In this document: positions 48,192 to 55,368 of the stretch, piece after piece
How positions within the stretch are numbered: the first letter of the stretch is position 1
How the letters are laid out: the number at the start of each line of letters is the position of its first letter
Assembly (NCBI RefSeq): GCF_000173075.1
Contig: NZ_ABVL01000001.1
Location: 434,001 to 498,000 of the forward strand
Length of the DNA stretch: 64,000 bases
Source of the DNA: Chthoniobacter flavus Ellin428
GTDB taxonomy: Bacteria > Verrucomicrobiota > Verrucomicrobiia > Chthoniobacterales > Chthoniobacteraceae
Direction of reading: 5' to 3'
Notes under the pieces: model-generated
Database searches by the model: none
The model's input: the letters and a program-made list of their open reading frames with translations, nothing else
What the model was told of the DNA's origin: nothing
Made by a program: the position numbers and the translations under genes

Positions 48192-49535
48192 ATGACGATT
48201 TTGCTGCTTATCCTGTTGGCGATCGCCATGGTTGGGACTCAGTTGTTGCTCGGTGGAAAAGAGCCGGCCTTCAGTCTGCCCGGTTACGGCGTACTGGCGC
48301 TGGGAGCGGTGTTGAGTGTGTGGTCATTGCGGCGCCTGCCGATTTCCAGGCGCACGTTGGTGTGCATCGCGACCAGCGTCGTCTTCTTCGGTTGCATCGT
48401 GATTCGCGCGTTGTTTTCGGAAGACCATTACCTGGCGAGGAGAGACCTGTATCTCGCACTGGCGGTGCTGATCGTTTACCTGCTGGTCGTGTTGCAGGTG
48501 ATCTCGCCCCGATTGCGTTTCTCGTTGGTCGGCGTCCTGCTGGTGCTGGGAGTGGTCGATACGGCCATCGGTGCGCTCCAGTACCAGCGTGGAGATGGCT
48601 TCATGCCGTTCGAATTTTTGTCGGCGGTGGGATATGGGGCGCGGGCGCGGGGCTTCTTTGGATGTCCGAATCATTTGGCGGGCTTTCTCGAGGTGGTGGT
48701 GATGCTGGGACTGAGCGTGGCTTTCTGGAGTGCCTGGCCGTGGTGGGGGAGGATCCTCATTGGTTACGCTTCGGCGGTCTGCGGCGTCGGCTTAATGCTC
48801 ACCGGAAGCCGCGGTGGCTACATGGCGCTGGCGGCAGGGTTGATGATTCTGGCCTGTCTCAGCGCGCTGCTCCTCAACCAACGAGGCCGGCCTTCACTTG
48901 CGCTCGCGCTGATGGCCAGCGTGGCCGTTGGGCTGTCGGCAGGAGCGTGGAGCATCCAGGCGGTGCTTCCGGCCGTATCCACGGTGCGCGACAAGATCCA
49001 TTCCGTCGTTTCGCTGGAAGCCGCTGTCGTGAATTGCCGGCCCCGGCTTTGGTCCTCGGCGCTGCAGCAGTCTGGCCTGAGCCCCGTGGCCGGAACGGGG
49101 AGCGGCACTTACCTTTACTACGGACGGCAATTTCGCGATCCGTCCATCCAGACCGATCCCGTTTATGCGCACTGTGATTACCTCCAGTTACTTGGAGAAT
49201 ACGGAATTGTCGGTGCGGTGGGTTTCTTGCTCTTTTTCGGATGCCATCTCGTCAGCGGTTGGAAGGCTTTTTGGCAGCAGAGTTCCCTCTACGGGGAGGC
49301 CGGAGGAGGAGGGCAGGGCGGTTCGGTGGCGCTGACGATCGGCGCTCTGTGCGGCACCGTCGCCATCGCGGTGCATTCCTGCGTCGATTTCAATCTGCAC
49401 ATTCCAGCCAATACGCTTTTCGTGGCCTTTGTCTTTGGCATGCTCGCGAATCCCGGTGGAGAACAGCGCCGGTTCGATCCTGCGTGGATGCCTGGTTGGC
49501 GGGCGGTGTTTGCCCTGCGTTGGGGCTTTGGCTGA
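48192..49535 (+). CDS. O-antigen ligase/polymerase-like membrane protein (Wzy_C type)
   Basis: The 447-residue protein has about 10-12 hydrophobic segments and the large-loop signature of Wzy_C proteins: YGARARGFFGCPNHLAGFLE (with the conserved Asn-His) and LMLTGSRGGYMALAAG. A periplasmic loop contains RPRLWSSALQQSGLSPVAGTGSGTYLYYGRQF and YAHCDYLQLLGEYGIVG, typical of the family. It joins or polymerises surface glycans. The frame ends at 49535 in mid-hydrophobic segment (AVFALRWGFG) and the +1 frame continues into a TPR protein, so the true product may be the usual ligase-TPR fusion with an indel near 49520. Confidence 0.85.
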   Translation: MTILLLILLAIAMVGTQLLLGGKEPAFSLPGYGVLALGAVLSVWSLRRLPISRRTLVCIATSVVFFGCIVIRALFSEDHYLARRDLYLALAVLIVYLLVVLQVISPRLRFSLVGVLLVLGVVDTAIGALQYQRGDGFMPFEFLSAVGYGARARGFFGCPNHLAGFLEVVVMLGLSVAFWSAWPWWGRILIGYASAVCGVGLMLTGSRGGYMALAAGLMILACLSALLLNQRGRPSLALALMASVAVGLSAGAWSIQAVLPAVSTVRDKIHSVVSLEAAVVNCRPRLWSSALQQSGLSPVAGTGSGTYLYYGRQFRDPSIQTDPVYAHCDYLQLLGEYGIVGAVGFLLFFGCHLVSGWKAFWQQSSLYGEAGGGGQGGSVALTIGALCGTVAIAVHSCVDFNLHIPANTLFVAFVFGMLANPGGEQRRFDPAWMPGWRAVFALRWGFG

Positions 49536-50119
49536 TGGCCGCCGTTCTGCGGACGTTACCTGCGGAATATGAGGTTGAACGGGCGAGAGCATTGCTCGCC
49601 GATTCGCGTTACCTCGAGTCTGCGGAGGTCGCCGGGCAGATTGTCGAATTCTCCGAGCGCGGGCTGCGCTACGATGCGCGGAATACCGAGTTGTACTATT
49701 GTCTCGGAGAAGCGCATTTCGCGCTCGCCCGCACCGCCTCATCCCCCGCCGAATCGCAACGGCACCACGAGAAAGCCGTGGCCGCGTATCGGCAAGCCCG
49801 GCAGATCGCCCCGCGCGACGTCCGCCTGTATTTGTGCGAAGCGATTTCGCTGGATGCTCTGCGGCGATTCGATGAAGCCGGAACCGTTTTAGATCAGGCG
49901 CGAGAGTTGGATCCCAATTCGATTTATGTCCTCCATGCCTGCGGCAGCCATCTGTACGCGGAGAAAAAGTTCTCCCAGGCGGAAGCCGAGTACCAGAAAG
50001 CGCGGCAATTGGGCAGTGAAGGTGCGCAGTACTGGCTGGAGATCCTCGCGGAAGATAAAAAGGCCGGGGGGCTGGGTGTGACATCATCCGGTTTACCAGT
50101 CGGGGCCACGGCGCCCTAG
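49532..50119 (+). CDS. TPR domain, separate gene or C-terminus of the O-antigen-ligase-like protein
   Basis: Read from ATG 49532, which overlaps the previous stop as TGATG, it gives MAAVLRTLPAEYEVERARALLADSRYLESAEVAGQIVEFSERGLRYDARNTELYYCLGEAHFALAR, then KAVAAYRQARQIAPRDVRLYLCEAISLDALRRFDEAGTVLDQARELDPNSIYVLHACGSHLYAEKKFSQAEAEYQKA: three or more tetratricopeptide repeats. Upstream in the same frame is PALGLWLMAAVL, the end of a transmembrane helix. In many Verrucomicrobiota ligase-type proteins these repeats are fused to the membrane part, so a split by a one-base indel is likely. Confidence 0.75.
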   Translation: MMAAVLRTLPAEYEVERARALLADSRYLESAEVAGQIVEFSERGLRYDARNTELYYCLGEAHFALARTASSPAESQRHHEKAVAAYRQARQIAPRDVRLYLCEAISLDALRRFDEAGTVLDQARELDPNSIYVLHACGSHLYAEKKFSQAEAEYQKARQLGSEGAQYWLEILAEDKKAGGLGVTSSGLPVGATAP

Positions 50120-50174: not shown

Positions 50175-51158
50175 ATGGCATCCCTCCATTCCCGCCGTCA
50201 GTTTCTCCAGACCTTCGGTTTCAGCGCGGCCGCTTTGCTCGCCGGACGCTTCGACCTGCGCGCCGCTTCGGTCGATCCAAAGGCGCAGCACCTCTTCCTC
50301 TTCGGAGATTGGGGCGCGGTGCTGCCCGATCCGCAACTTCAGGTCGCGCGCACCATGGCGAGCTACATGGAAGGGCAGGGGATTCGGCCGGCTGCGCTGC
50401 TCTCGCTCGGCGATAATTTCTACGGCCAAATGGACGGTGGCGTGGATTGCCCGCGCTGGAAGACGCAATTTGAGGACACCTATCCGAAGTCGCAATTCAG
50501 CGGCCCGTGCTACGCGTTGCTCGGCAATCATGACTACAGCGTCGAGCCCGCCGGAAAGGCCGAGGCTCAGCTCGCCTACGCCGCCGCGCATCCCGGCACT
50601 CGCTGGACCATGCCGGCGAAATGGTATCGCTTTGAATTTCCGCAGGAGCGTCCTCTGGTCACTTTCCTGATGCTCGATAGCAATTACCAAAAAGCCACGG
50701 CGGAAAAACTCTCGCTCACCGAGGAAGAGCGGTCCGCGCAGGCGCAGTGGCTCAAGGCCGAACTCGCGAAGCCGCGGACCACGAAGTATCTCATTATCTG
50801 CGGACATCACCCGCTGTATTCCAATGCCGGCGACAGCGTGAAGCTCATCGGCGAATGGGATGCGCTCTTCCGTGAGCAGGCCGCGCACCTCTATTTCTGC
50901 GGCCACATTCACGATCTCGAGCACCTCGAGTTCGATGGCCACCCCACTTCGTTCGTGGTCTCGGGCGGCGGTGGCACCACGCTGCGGCCGAACGAGAAGA
51001 CGGAGTCTTCCGCACAGAATCGCTTCAATGGCAGGATCCATGGCTTCACCCACCTGGAGATCACTGACCAGCGCCTGGTCGTGCGGCACATCGGCGCGGA
51101 AGGAGGCCAGTTGCACGCCTTCACGAAATCCCCGCAGGGCGCGGTGGAAATCATCTAA
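50175..51158 (+). CDS. Tat-exported metallophosphoesterase (type 5 acid-phosphatase-like)
   Basis: ATG 50175 gives a twin-arginine signal (MASLHSRRQFLQTFGFSAAALLAG); the ORF's TTG start at 50157 adds six residues. The 327-residue protein carries the calcineurin-fold metal motifs: LFGDWGAV, LGDNFYG, LLGNHDYS, ICGHHPLYSNAG and YFCGHIHDLEHLE. This is the set of purple acid phosphatase type 5 (TRAP/ACP5) proteins. It would remove phosphate from organic esters outside the cytoplasm with two metals. It precedes the zinc phospholipase-like gene by 38 bases. Confidence 0.93.
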   Translation: MASLHSRRQFLQTFGFSAAALLAGRFDLRAASVDPKAQHLFLFGDWGAVLPDPQLQVARTMASYMEGQGIRPAALLSLGDNFYGQMDGGVDCPRWKTQFEDTYPKSQFSGPCYALLGNHDYSVEPAGKAEAQLAYAAAHPGTRWTMPAKWYRFEFPQERPLVTFLMLDSNYQKATAEKLSLTEEERSAQAQWLKAELAKPRTTKYLIICGHHPLYSNAGDSVKLIGEWDALFREQAAHLYFCGHIHDLEHLEFDGHPTSFVVSGGGGTTLRPNEKTESSAQNRFNGRIHGFTHLEITDQRLVVRHIGAEGGQLHAFTKSPQGAVEII

Positions 51159-51196
51159 GCGCGACCGCGTCCGTGGATGAACGGAGAGCAGGCATC

Positions 51197-52561
51197 ATGA
51201 AGTCCGTTCTCCCCCTCTTCCGCGCGTTACTCGTTTGTACTTTGCTCGGGGTATCCTCGGGCCACCTCCTCGCCTGGGGGCCGCATTCGGAGATTACCCA
51301 GGCGGCGGTCGATACGCTGAGCACTGATGATGCGATCGTGCGCGAACTCGGCCCGGCGTTGGGCCGGCTGCGTGACTATTGCTGGATGGCCGATCAGCGC
51401 CGGCAATTGCGCCAGGAGGGTGCCGCCGGTTGGTTTTACAGCGACGACTATCTGCTCTTCCCGAAGATGACCACGCACAAGGATCATCTGTGTCCCGAAG
51501 TAAAGCAGACCTACGAGCCGTATTTCCGCCGGGCCTTGCAAGCGCTGCGCACTGAGACGCCGGTAAATGCCGCGCGCTGGATCGGCTCCATCATTCATTT
51601 CACCGAGGATACCGGTTCGCCTCCGCACGCCGCAGAGATCCGGGGCCCCGTGCACAGCAAGATGGAGAATTGGGTCGACGCCAAGGCCGTCACCATCGCC
51701 GGCTATCATCCGCGCTCGCTCGGTGCCACGGATGACGAGGCCGTGGCGGGATTTTTGCAGCGCATGAATGGCTTGATCGCCTTTTCAAAGGAACGCGCGG
51801 AGCGGGCGAAGCCTTTCGTGCTGGGCGACGATCGCGCTTCGACCGAACCGATCGTGCTGGAGAGTGCGCTGGAGTGCAGTCGCGTGGTGGCGGACATGTT
51901 GTTCACCCTCGGGCAGTTGGCGGAGAAATCGCCGACGGCTACCGGAACGGTGCATGGGACGATTACCGGCGCGGCGGCTCCGGGACTCGAAAAGATGCCG
52001 GCCAAAGTGGTGTTGGTCGGCACGGATTTCTCCACTCTGGCGGATGCCAAGGGAGAATATGAGTTTCGGCATTTGCCTCCCGCGACTTATCACGCCGCCG
52101 TGCTCCAGCCGGGTAGTGCGGTCGCCACGGCGGATATCGTGCTGTCGGCGGATCAGACGGTCACTCATGATATCGCGCTCCCTGCCGATGCGGTGCCGGG
52201 TAATTTGATTCGCAATAGCTCGCTGGCGGCGGTCTGGCTGGCGCCTTCCGTGCCGGATATGTGGTATCGGGTAAAATCGCGGATCGATAGCCCCTACTGG
52301 GAGGGGGAGATGCTGCCGCTGCAAAAGGGAAGAACCTATCGAGTGAATGTGTCGTGGCCGGAGAAGTCGACCGGACGCGTCGTAGTGCGCTTGCGCAAGA
52401 GCGCGGATTTTTCCCAATTACCGGAGGAGTTGCCACCGCTGCGGCCGGGACAAACGGAGCTCGAATTTCCGGCCGAGGGTGGCTTTGCCCAGGTGCTCGT
52501 CTATTCCGAAGGAGCGGCTTCTTCCGCGGTCAGAAATGTGGCCCTGACGCTGGTGCCATGA
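51197..52561 (+). CDS. Secreted zinc phospholipase C/S1-P1-nuclease-like protein
   Basis: ATG 51197 begins a signal peptide (MKSVLPLFRALLVCTLLGVSSGHLLA), cleaved before a Trp as in S1/P1 nucleases and zinc phospholipases: AWGPHSEITQAAVDTL. Further zinc-site segments are YCWMADQRR and IGSIIHFTEDTGSPPHAAEIRGPVHSKMENWVDAK. From about residue 245 to 340 lies a carboxypeptidase-regulatory-like domain (GTVHGTITGAAAPGLEKMPAKVVLVG, ADAKGEYEFRHLPPATYHA), then a C-terminal sandwich. It should cleave nucleic acid or phospholipid phosphoesters outside the cell. The stop overlaps the next start by 4 bases. Confidence 0.87.
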   Translation: MKSVLPLFRALLVCTLLGVSSGHLLAWGPHSEITQAAVDTLSTDDAIVRELGPALGRLRDYCWMADQRRQLRQEGAAGWFYSDDYLLFPKMTTHKDHLCPEVKQTYEPYFRRALQALRTETPVNAARWIGSIIHFTEDTGSPPHAAEIRGPVHSKMENWVDAKAVTIAGYHPRSLGATDDEAVAGFLQRMNGLIAFSKERAERAKPFVLGDDRASTEPIVLESALECSRVVADMLFTLGQLAEKSPTATGTVHGTITGAAAPGLEKMPAKVVLVGTDFSTLADAKGEYEFRHLPPATYHAAVLQPGSAVATADIVLSADQTVTHDIALPADAVPGNLIRNSSLAAVWLAPSVPDMWYRVKSRIDSPYWEGEMLPLQKGRTYRVNVSWPEKSTGRVVVRLRKSADFSQLPEELPPLRPGQTELEFPAEGGFAQVLVYSEGAASSAVRNVALTLVP

Positions 52562-54525
52562 GTTCCCTGCGATCGGCCTTCATTCTCCTGGGGACCGCTT
52601 TGTTTCTTTCAGGTCCGCTGGCGGCTGCGGAAACGCGACGCGTCCTCGACAGCCATAGCCATCACCTTGGTTTGGAAGGAGAGCGCGAATGGAAAGATCT
52701 GGATGGCACGACGCCGGAAGGGCGCTCCCTGCAAATCACTTTCGACGCGCACGCCAATGCTCAACCCGCGACGCTGTTCATTCGCCAGCGGGACGTGAAG
52801 CTCAAATGGGCGGTGCTGTTGAATGGCCGCAAGCTCGGCGCGCTCGATCTCATGGAATATCCCGAGGTGGCGACGATCGCCGTGCCGCCGGGTGTGTTGC
52901 ACGAAGGGCCGAACAATCTCTCGATCCTCTCCCCCGAAATGCCGGACGACGTTTTCATCGACGAGATTGCCCTGGATACCCGCGCGCCGGACGAGGCGCG
53001 CCGGGATGGAACGATTCACGTGCGCGTGATCGACCAGGATTCACGGGCCGCGTTGCCCTGCCGTCTCACCATCGCCGACGCCCACGGCGCCCTCGCGCCG
53101 TTGTCTGCGACGCCCGGACAAACCGTCGCCGCGCGCGCGGGCGTCGCCTACACGGGCGATGGGCAGGCCACCATCGGCCTCCCTGCGGGAGACTACACGC
53201 TCTACGCCACCCGTGGTCCGGAGTATGGCGTCGCCGAAAAGAAGATCTCCGTGCACGCGGGCAGTGCGGAGGACATCGACCTCGCCATCGCGCGCGAAGT
53301 AGCCACGCCGCACCTCGCCGCGTGCGACACCCACATCCACACCTTCACCTACAGCAAGCACGGAGATGCCTCGACGGAGGACCGGGTGCTCACGCTGGCC
53401 GGCGAAGGCATCGAACTCGCCATCGCCTCCGATCACAACGTCTACGCCGACTATTCCGACGTGGCCCGGCGCTTGAAAGTGGCCGACGCCTTCACGCTGG
53501 TCCTCGGGGATGAAGCCACCACCACCGTCGGTCATTTCATTGCTTTCCCCATCGCCAGCACCCAGGCGCCGCTGCCGGATGCGAAGCTTACGGATTGGCC
53601 GGCGCTGATGCAATCCATCCGCAGCGTGCCGGGTGTGCAGGTCGTGATCCTCAATCATCCGCGCGACACGCATAACTCCTTCATTCCCTTCGCACTGGAG
53701 AATTTCGACGCCGTGAGCGGCGATAACTTGCGCGGGCCGGACTTCACCTTCGATGCCGTGGAAGTCTGCAATTCGGGCACGCTGCAGTCGGATTTCATGC
53801 GCAGCTTTCGCGACTGGTTCGCCCTGCTCAATCACGGCTATCGCGTGACCGCCATCGGCTCCAGCGATTCGCATGATGTCTCGCGTTTCATCGTTGGACA
53901 GGGGCGCACTTACGTCACGTGCGACGACACGCACCCCGGCCACATCGACGTCGACGAAGCCTGCCGCAATCTCAAGGCCGGGCACGCCTATGTGAGCCTC
54001 GGCCTGCTTGCACGCCTCACCGTGAATGACCGCTTCGAGGCCGGCGACCTGGCGACTTCGCTGGGCAACGAGATCAAAGTGAACGTGAGCGTCCTTGGGC
54101 CGGACTGGGCGCAGGTCGATCGGGTCGAGCTTTACGCGAATGGCATCCAAATTCGCGAGCAGGTCATCGCGACGCCGAAGGCTCCGGGAGAAAAGGCGCG
54201 CATCGAGTGGCGCATTCCGCGTCCGGCGCACGATACTTATCTCGTCGCCATTGCCAGCGGCCCCGGCGTGACCGCGCCCTATTGGGCCATTCCATTTCCC
54301 TATCAGCCCACCGATCGTCTCCGGAATCCCAAAGTCATCGGGGCGACCAATCCCGTGTGGCTCGATGTGGATGGCGACGGAAAATTCACCTCCGCGCGCG
54401 GCTATGCGCAGGCGATTCTCAATCGCGCATCCGGTGACCCCGCGAAAGTGGCGGAGAGCCTCAAAGGCTACGACGCCGCCGTCGCTGCGCAGGTCACCGC
54501 GCTGACGGCGAAGCGCCAGCCGTAG
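52558..54525 (+). CDS. Secreted CehA/McbA-type PHP-domain metallohydrolase
   Basis: ATG 52558, overlapping the previous stop as ATGA, opens with a signal peptide (MSSLRSAFILLGTALFLSGPLAAA). After an N-terminal sandwich (about 30-240) the PHP core carries CDTHIHTFTYSKHG, LAIASDHNVYADYS, LNHPRDTHN and TAIGSSDSHDVSRF, the metal-binding His/Asp set. A C-terminal extension (about 490-655) follows. The CehA/McbA group includes carbaryl hydrolase; many members hydrolyse phosphoesters or amides. Its link to a phosphatase and a phospholipase-like protein hints at phosphoester scavenging (inference). Confidence 0.9.
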   Translation: MSSLRSAFILLGTALFLSGPLAAAETRRVLDSHSHHLGLEGEREWKDLDGTTPEGRSLQITFDAHANAQPATLFIRQRDVKLKWAVLLNGRKLGALDLMEYPEVATIAVPPGVLHEGPNNLSILSPEMPDDVFIDEIALDTRAPDEARRDGTIHVRVIDQDSRAALPCRLTIADAHGALAPLSATPGQTVAARAGVAYTGDGQATIGLPAGDYTLYATRGPEYGVAEKKISVHAGSAEDIDLAIAREVATPHLAACDTHIHTFTYSKHGDASTEDRVLTLAGEGIELAIASDHNVYADYSDVARRLKVADAFTLVLGDEATTTVGHFIAFPIASTQAPLPDAKLTDWPALMQSIRSVPGVQVVILNHPRDTHNSFIPFALENFDAVSGDNLRGPDFTFDAVEVCNSGTLQSDFMRSFRDWFALLNHGYRVTAIGSSDSHDVSRFIVGQGRTYVTCDDTHPGHIDVDEACRNLKAGHAYVSLGLLARLTVNDRFEAGDLATSLGNEIKVNVSVLGPDWAQVDRVELYANGIQIREQVIATPKAPGEKARIEWRIPRPAHDTYLVAIASGPGVTAPYWAIPFPYQPTDRLRNPKVIGATNPVWLDVDGDGKFTSARGYAQAILNRASGDPAKVAESLKGYDAAVAAQVTALTAKRQP

Positions 54526-54534
54526 CCGCACATG

Positions 54535-54560
54535 GCTATCCACTATCCACCATCAACTTT
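54535..54560 (+). repeat. Short heptad-type repeat (CTATCCA/CCATCAA)
   Basis: CTATCCA, CTATCCA, CCATCAA and CTTTCCG follow each other in 7-base steps between the CehA stop and the ferredoxin stop. The spacing equals that of the TCAACTM repeats near 30-31 kb. Confidence 0.4.
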
Positions 54561-55059
54561 CCGTCGCCTTCCCCACGATCCGTTCCGCGTCCCGAGGTGT
54601 GCAGTGGTGAAAATCGTGCCCCCGCCACTCCGCATTCGGACCGCGTTTGCAGTGATCCAGGCAATGAGCTCCTTCCAGTGGAATGGTTCCGGTGAGGCCT
54701 TGGCGGGCCAGCGTGTCTTCCAGCGCATCCCAAAGTTCCTTCCCACCATTGCGCCAGCAGTTCTTCTTGTTGCACACCCGGATCGGGCAGACCGCGCAAG
54801 CCACGAGCCCGTCGGCCGTTACGAGCTTTACCTCGTCGATCACGCGCTTCCTGTCGCCCGCTCGTTCGTGTCCCAGCACCAGAACCTCCGCGCCCGGAGC
54901 CAAAGCCGTCTTCAGCCGATGCCGCAGCTCCTTTTCCACCTTGAGAAAGTGTTCCTCCTTGTCCACCCGCAAGACCATGCGCCGCTTGCCGAGCAGCGTG
55001 CGAATGAAGCCGCAAAACCGGCCGCGCAGTTCGAAAGGGATCGCAGGGTGTGAGGACAT
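54553..55059 (-). CDS. Thioredoxin-like [2Fe-2S] ferredoxin domain protein
   Basis: ATG 55059 gives MSSHPAIPFELRGRFCGFIRTLLGKRRMVLRVDKEEHFLKVEKELRHRL; the frame to 55188 is not supported. The 168-residue protein ends with the thioredoxin-like ferredoxin domain: CPIRVCNKKNCWRNGGKELWDAL and HCLDHCKRGPNAEWRGHDFHHCTPRDAERIVGK, with Cys spacing like NuoE/bacterial 2Fe-2S ferredoxins. It may carry electrons, but the long N-terminal segment (with GAEVLVLGHERAG) is not typical. It is convergent with the CehA-type gene. Confidence 0.85.
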   Translation of the reverse strand: MSSHPAIPFELRGRFCGFIRTLLGKRRMVLRVDKEEHFLKVEKELRHRLKTALAPGAEVLVLGHERAGDRKRVIDEVKLVTADGLVACAVCPIRVCNKKNCWRNGGKELWDALEDTLARQGLTGTIPLEGAHCLDHCKRGPNAEWRGHDFHHCTPRDAERIVGKATES

Positions 55060-55368
55060 AACAGGGGAGCGGCGAATAGTGTTATCCTTCGCGGAACGAA
55101 TGCAAATCGAAGCGTGACGCGTGGCTGGCGGCGCTATGCAACGGAGACCGGCTTCCCCGCGTGCGGGAAGCTCCTGCAAAGTGCCCACGGTTTAGGCAAA
55201 CGCCCGGATCGCGGCTGCCTCGGTGATGGGATGTCCGCCCTCAACCGGAGCATCCCCATGCTGTTTGAAATTGCGGTCGCAACGACGCGCAAACTCGCCG
55301 CCGGTTTAGGTGCGTGTGCTTCCTTTCCATTCGGAAAGCCCAAAGCCGCAAAATCGAAGATACCTTAG
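55060..55368. other. Intergenic stretch, no gene seen
   Basis: No convincing gene, RNA or repeat was recognised in these 309 bases. The ferredoxin promoter should lie at its left end. Confidence 0.35.

Follow-up and report, generated by a model that had tools for sequence, protein, structure and literature searches.

Three consecutive plus-strand genes in the window (the whole 64,000-nucleotide stretch of DNA analyzed, from which positions are numbered) encode metal-dependent hydrolases predicted to be exported, and the genes probably share one transcript. With roughly even confidence, we read the first two products, P1 and P2, as a phosphodiesterase/phosphatase pair by predicted activity, and the third, P3, as a lineage-specific CehA-type addition. 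P2 would act as a phospholipase-C-like phosphodiesterase in which the mature N-terminal Trp27 helps to hold a three-zinc site, and P1 would release phosphate from the monoesters made by P2. P3, with its own independent distribution, would cut an ester, carbamate or diester and would have joined P1–P2 only in this lineage. The first-pass annotation of the three genes was accurate; the pathway drawn from it is an over-reading. Verrucomicrobiota are abundant in soil and little studied, and not much is known of how they draw phosphorus from organic material. A PLC-type enzyme paired with a phosphatase, if true, would be a simple route to that phosphorus. The one element that may be new is the sparse P2 family with its changing partners; the trio itself is not to be regarded as a pathway.

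Locus and genomic setting

The genes for P1 (50175..51158, +, 327 aa), P2 (51197..52561, +, 454 aa) and P3 (52558..54525, +, 655 aa) were confirmed as consecutive open reading frames, with the ATGA coupling of the last two as initially described. P1 and P2 are separated by 38 nt, and the P2 stop and P3 start overlap within ATGA, spacing that points to one probable transcript. A scan for sigma-70-type promoters returned zero. Lying 55 nt 5' of P1 is a separate overlapping gene pair (48192-50119, overlap TGATG), one gene O-antigen-ligase-like and the other of TPR type; its co-transcription with the trio is possible. The run ends 3' of P3 at a convergent minus-strand gene (54553-55188) for a thioredoxin-like 2Fe-2S/DUF1636 protein. 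The host genome comprises 7.85 Mb in 62 contigs, and its relatives are Verrucomicrobiota. A horizontal island was rejected, as GC and GC3 of the trio are those of its neighbors and do not indicate recent foreign origin. Phage origin was also rejected, with zero matches in a PHROG search. A literature search found no paper on the P1–P2–P3 locus.

Predicted enzyme families

P1 carries the Tat motif SRRQFL at its N-terminus and matches Metallophos PF00149 at 47 bits. Its best PDB relatives are mammalian purple acid phosphatases (PAPs; human 1war, E=5.6e-29), with homology spanning residues 39–314. All seven PAP metal ligands are aligned (D45, D80, Y83, N118, H211, H244 and H246), giving the D, D, Y, N, H, H, H set of the family in its five motifs, GDWG, GDNFY, GNHD, GHhP and GHxH. 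The initial label of a Tat acid-phosphatase-like enzyme therefore holds, and P1 is a candidate for an ordinary secreted acid phosphatase of the two-metal type. The same genome encodes a paralogue elsewhere (G000:C61, 53% identity) and has 15 PF00149 matches altogether.

P2 is a predicted PLC/S1-P1-type zinc hydrolase with a signal peptide identified by eye. Ligand conservation, the profile match, an AlphaFold (AF2) model and Foldseek define a helical PLC-type catalytic domain (residues 27–245; 51275..51931, +). This is followed by a carboxypeptidase-regulatory/transthyretin-like beta domain (residues 251–328; 51947..52180, +) and a C-terminal beta domain. CarboxypepD_reg PF13620 is the sole Pfam match (39 bits, E=8e-10) and was found in 17 of the 18 members of the family alignment (P2 plus 17 orthologues). 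This architecture agrees with the first-pass description of a zinc phospholipase/nuclease-like protein with a carboxypeptidase-regulatory domain.

Invariant in all 18 aligned members are W27, H30, D66, H94, H97, H134, D138, H144, H153 and E157 (P2 numbering). W27 directly follows the signal peptide and, by the predicted cleavage site, is the mature N-terminus, so that P2 has both the candidate zinc-ligand set and the predicted N-terminal Trp that mark the PLC/S1-P1 superfamily. In S1 nuclease a Trp is the first residue of the mature chain and the N-terminus binds zinc (PMC5201275); the cluster ligands of P1/S1 nucleases, of the PLC/P1 superfamily, are one Trp, five His and three Asp (PMC4144908). 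The P2 profile aligned with residues 14–151 of B. cereus PLC. The AF2 model (pLDDT 76.9, with low confidence at residues 83–94 and just before W27) resembled solved superfamily members in fold: Foldseek matched it to PC-PLC and Listeria PLC 8cqm with prob 1.00 and TMt 0.55–0.65 (8cqm, 0.65; 2fgn, 0.61). The highest-ranked matches were beta domains of rhamnogalacturonan lyase. Zn_dep_PLPC PF00882 gave weak matches in 7/18 family members (best E=0.0032) and none in P2 itself at E<=1. Lying below the Pfam PLC cut-off, P2 is by its sequence a distant PLC-like superfamily member whose substrate cannot be deduced from it.

P3 matches the NCBIfam CehA/McbA model NF038032 at 141.5 bits over model positions 4–315 of 315, above the curated cut-off of 80 bits across the whole domain, which bears out its description as a CehA-type PHP hydrolase. 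NF038032 and the orthologue alignment place the PHP catalytic region at residues 255–603 (53320..54366, +); H259, H261, D292, H293, E319, H367, D437 and H439 are invariant among aligned orthologues. A signal peptide was identified by eye. P3 scores below the PF02811 cut-off, a PDB sequence search with its profile gave no match, and a single-sequence structure model (pLDDT 42) was unusable for fold. The cited CehA and McbA enzymes are esterase-type carbamate hydrolases (PMC8292978), leaving the label of phosphoesterase unsupported for P3. A literature search for a secreted CehA/PHP phosphodiesterase found none. Sb-PDE of Sphingobium TCM1 is a secreted PHP phosphodiesterase (PMC5460133), so such a role is possible for P3, although family alone cannot tell. 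The first-pass claim that all three products are secreted phosphoesterases thus stands for the superfamilies of P1 and P2 and lacks support for P3.

Distribution and partners

The trio was not found together in another genome among the hundreds searched. Within 97 relatives, close P2 orthologues (48–52%) occurred only in G015, G028 and G039; these closest P2-bearing relatives lack a P1 orthologue. Close full-length P3 orthologues (50%) occurred in G006 and G027. P3 was near none of 24 P2-orthologue loci (0/24), P1 or P2 near none of 22 P3-orthologue loci (0/22), and no P1 orthologue adjoined a P2 orthologue at the 24 loci (L131 duplicates L068). Neighbors of P1 and P3 orthologues varied. Conservation of the trio, whose absence the first-pass annotation had named as refuting its proposal, is accordingly lacking, and we reject the trio as a conserved unit. 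Incompleteness of MAGs weakens individual absences and leaves the overall pattern unaffected.

Across 384 genomes of the class, strong P2 matches were present in 10, full-length P3 in 20 and both in 2, against 0.52 expected (p=0.09). With the host genome left out, one co-occurrence remained against 0.45 expected (p=0.37); in that other genome, G421, P2 and P3 lie on separate contigs. A functional P2–P3 link by co-occurrence, which is at chance level across these genomes, was therefore rejected.

Several side observations concern these loci. The records of L056, L065, L066 and L068 are titled Akkermansia muciniphila, while their genes place them among other Verrucomicrobiota, and the titles look mislabeled; L065 is a contig of G028, which belongs to the same family as the window. 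By sequence look, ceramidase-like genes lie near P3 orthologues at two loci (L142:4997-6412 and L154:6930-8213), and a DUF1501-looking family recurs beside them at five (L142, L144, L146, L156 and L157).

Grouped at 70% identity, the P2 orthologues fall into 13 lineages, one of them that of the window, and two of the others pair P2 with a metallophosphoesterase. In one (L059, L061 and L064) a co-directional metallophosphoesterase gene lies 28 nt upstream of P2, identified by Pfam scan in L061 and L064 and by motif pattern plus 95% identity in L059. In the other (L067) a co-directional gene lies 12 nt downstream. These two types and P1 are mutually unrelated (zero BLAST matches below 0.01). The background, taken from 12 genomes totaling 67.7 Mb, was 155 metallophosphoesterases (2.29 per Mb), or ~0.25% of genes assuming roughly 0.9 gene per kb. 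On this basis ~0.06 neighbors were expected in the 12 other lineages and two were seen (probability of at least two, ~0.002–0.004). Chance or shared ecology could be an alternative explanation of the pairing.

P2-type domains are also fused to other hydrolases: to a GDSL lipase (L066:4460-6766 and L068:7875-10052), to a sulfatase (L069:7806-10679), and to a BNR sialidase with a SASA (sialate) esterase (L059:2428-5739). The fusion partner varies even where the P2 domains exceed 80% identity. These arrangements point to P2 acting together with exchangeable hydrolases, and the variety of adjacent and fused partners makes a P1–P2 pairing more plausible than chance. We tentatively propose, as a possibility short of a probability, that P2 represents a Verrucomicrobiota family, so far undescribed, whose exported PLC-type enzymes have repeatedly gained a second hydrolase, namely unrelated adjacent metallophosphoesterases in three lineages and a fused GDSL lipase, sulfatase, or sialidase with sialate esterase elsewhere. 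It might then serve as one step in an interchangeable two-step degradation of phospholipid-like or other complex substrates.

Alternative explanations and known systems

The neighborhood could be fortuitous, bringing together three unrelated secreted hydrolases in one genome with no common substrate. Such an accident would explain why every other genome examined lacks the trio, why P2 and P3 co-occur at chance once their own genome is set aside, and why P1 and P3 orthologues have varied neighbors. It fits poorly with the tight same-strand spacing, the ATGA overlap and the recurrence of P2–metallophosphoesterase pairs in two other lineages, and we consider it rather doubtful. At the other extreme, the three enzymes might form a dedicated pathway, induced by phosphate starvation, that liberates phosphate from nucleic acid or lipid. 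The superfamilies of P1 and P2 and the existence of Sb-PDE speak for this; the lack of conservation and the carbamate substrates of the cited CehA/McbA enzymes speak against it. No PhoB-box-like site was found near the trio, a weak point against induction and an uninformative test, since the host's own pst-type loci also lack a clear box. A three-enzyme pathway is thus quite improbable, and what survives of the proposed phosphate-liberating unit is the P1–P2 pairing, for which the metallophosphoesterases beside P2 in the two other lineages argue.

A further question is which phosphodiester P2 would cut. As an S1/P1-type nuclease/3'-nucleotidase, it would act with P1 to turn extracellular nucleic acid into nucleoside and phosphate. 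In favor of this, P2 belongs to the superfamily of those nucleases, and the zinc site predicted for it has an N-terminal Trp, as in S1 nuclease. Its profile and fold matches are nevertheless PLCs, with no S1/P1 nuclease structure among the best 50 Foldseek matches. The S1-P1 nuclease profile PF02265 matched neither P2 nor its 17 orthologues (0/18, against 7/18 for Zn_dep_PLPC), and the position of S1 Lys68 has no conserved counterpart after P2 D66. A nuclease is therefore unlikely, and a phospholipase is the favored predicted activity from sequence and model.

Under the preferred reading of a P1–P2 pair with P3 added, each product has known counterparts. P1 aligns over nearly its full length with low-molecular-weight/TRAP-type PAPs (human 1war and pig 1ute) and shares all seven ligands, including the Tyr of GDNFY; it differs in being bacterial and bearing a Tat motif, and its phosphatase activity is predicted. 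The P2 catalytic domain is closest, in profile and in fold, to zinc-dependent PLCs (B. cereus PC-PLC 1ah7, the broad-range Listeria enzyme 8cqm and PF00882), which have in common with it an H-x3-D-x5-H ... H-x3-E motif and a Trp after the signal peptide. Identity is ~18%, and P2 adds the carboxypeptidase-regulatory and C-terminal beta domains. With the S1/P1 nuclease family P2 has in common the features given above; Lys68 of S1 lies three residues past Asp65, a distance at which P2 offers no conserved equivalent. P3 matches the whole domain model of the CehA/McbA carbamate hydrolases and has the PHP metal motifs in common with them, with additional N-terminal beta domains. Sb-PDE is shorter (413 aa mature) and PF02811-type; like P3 it is a secreted PHP-type hydrolase, by prediction in the case of P3, and it shows that phosphodiester cleavage is possible for such enzymes.
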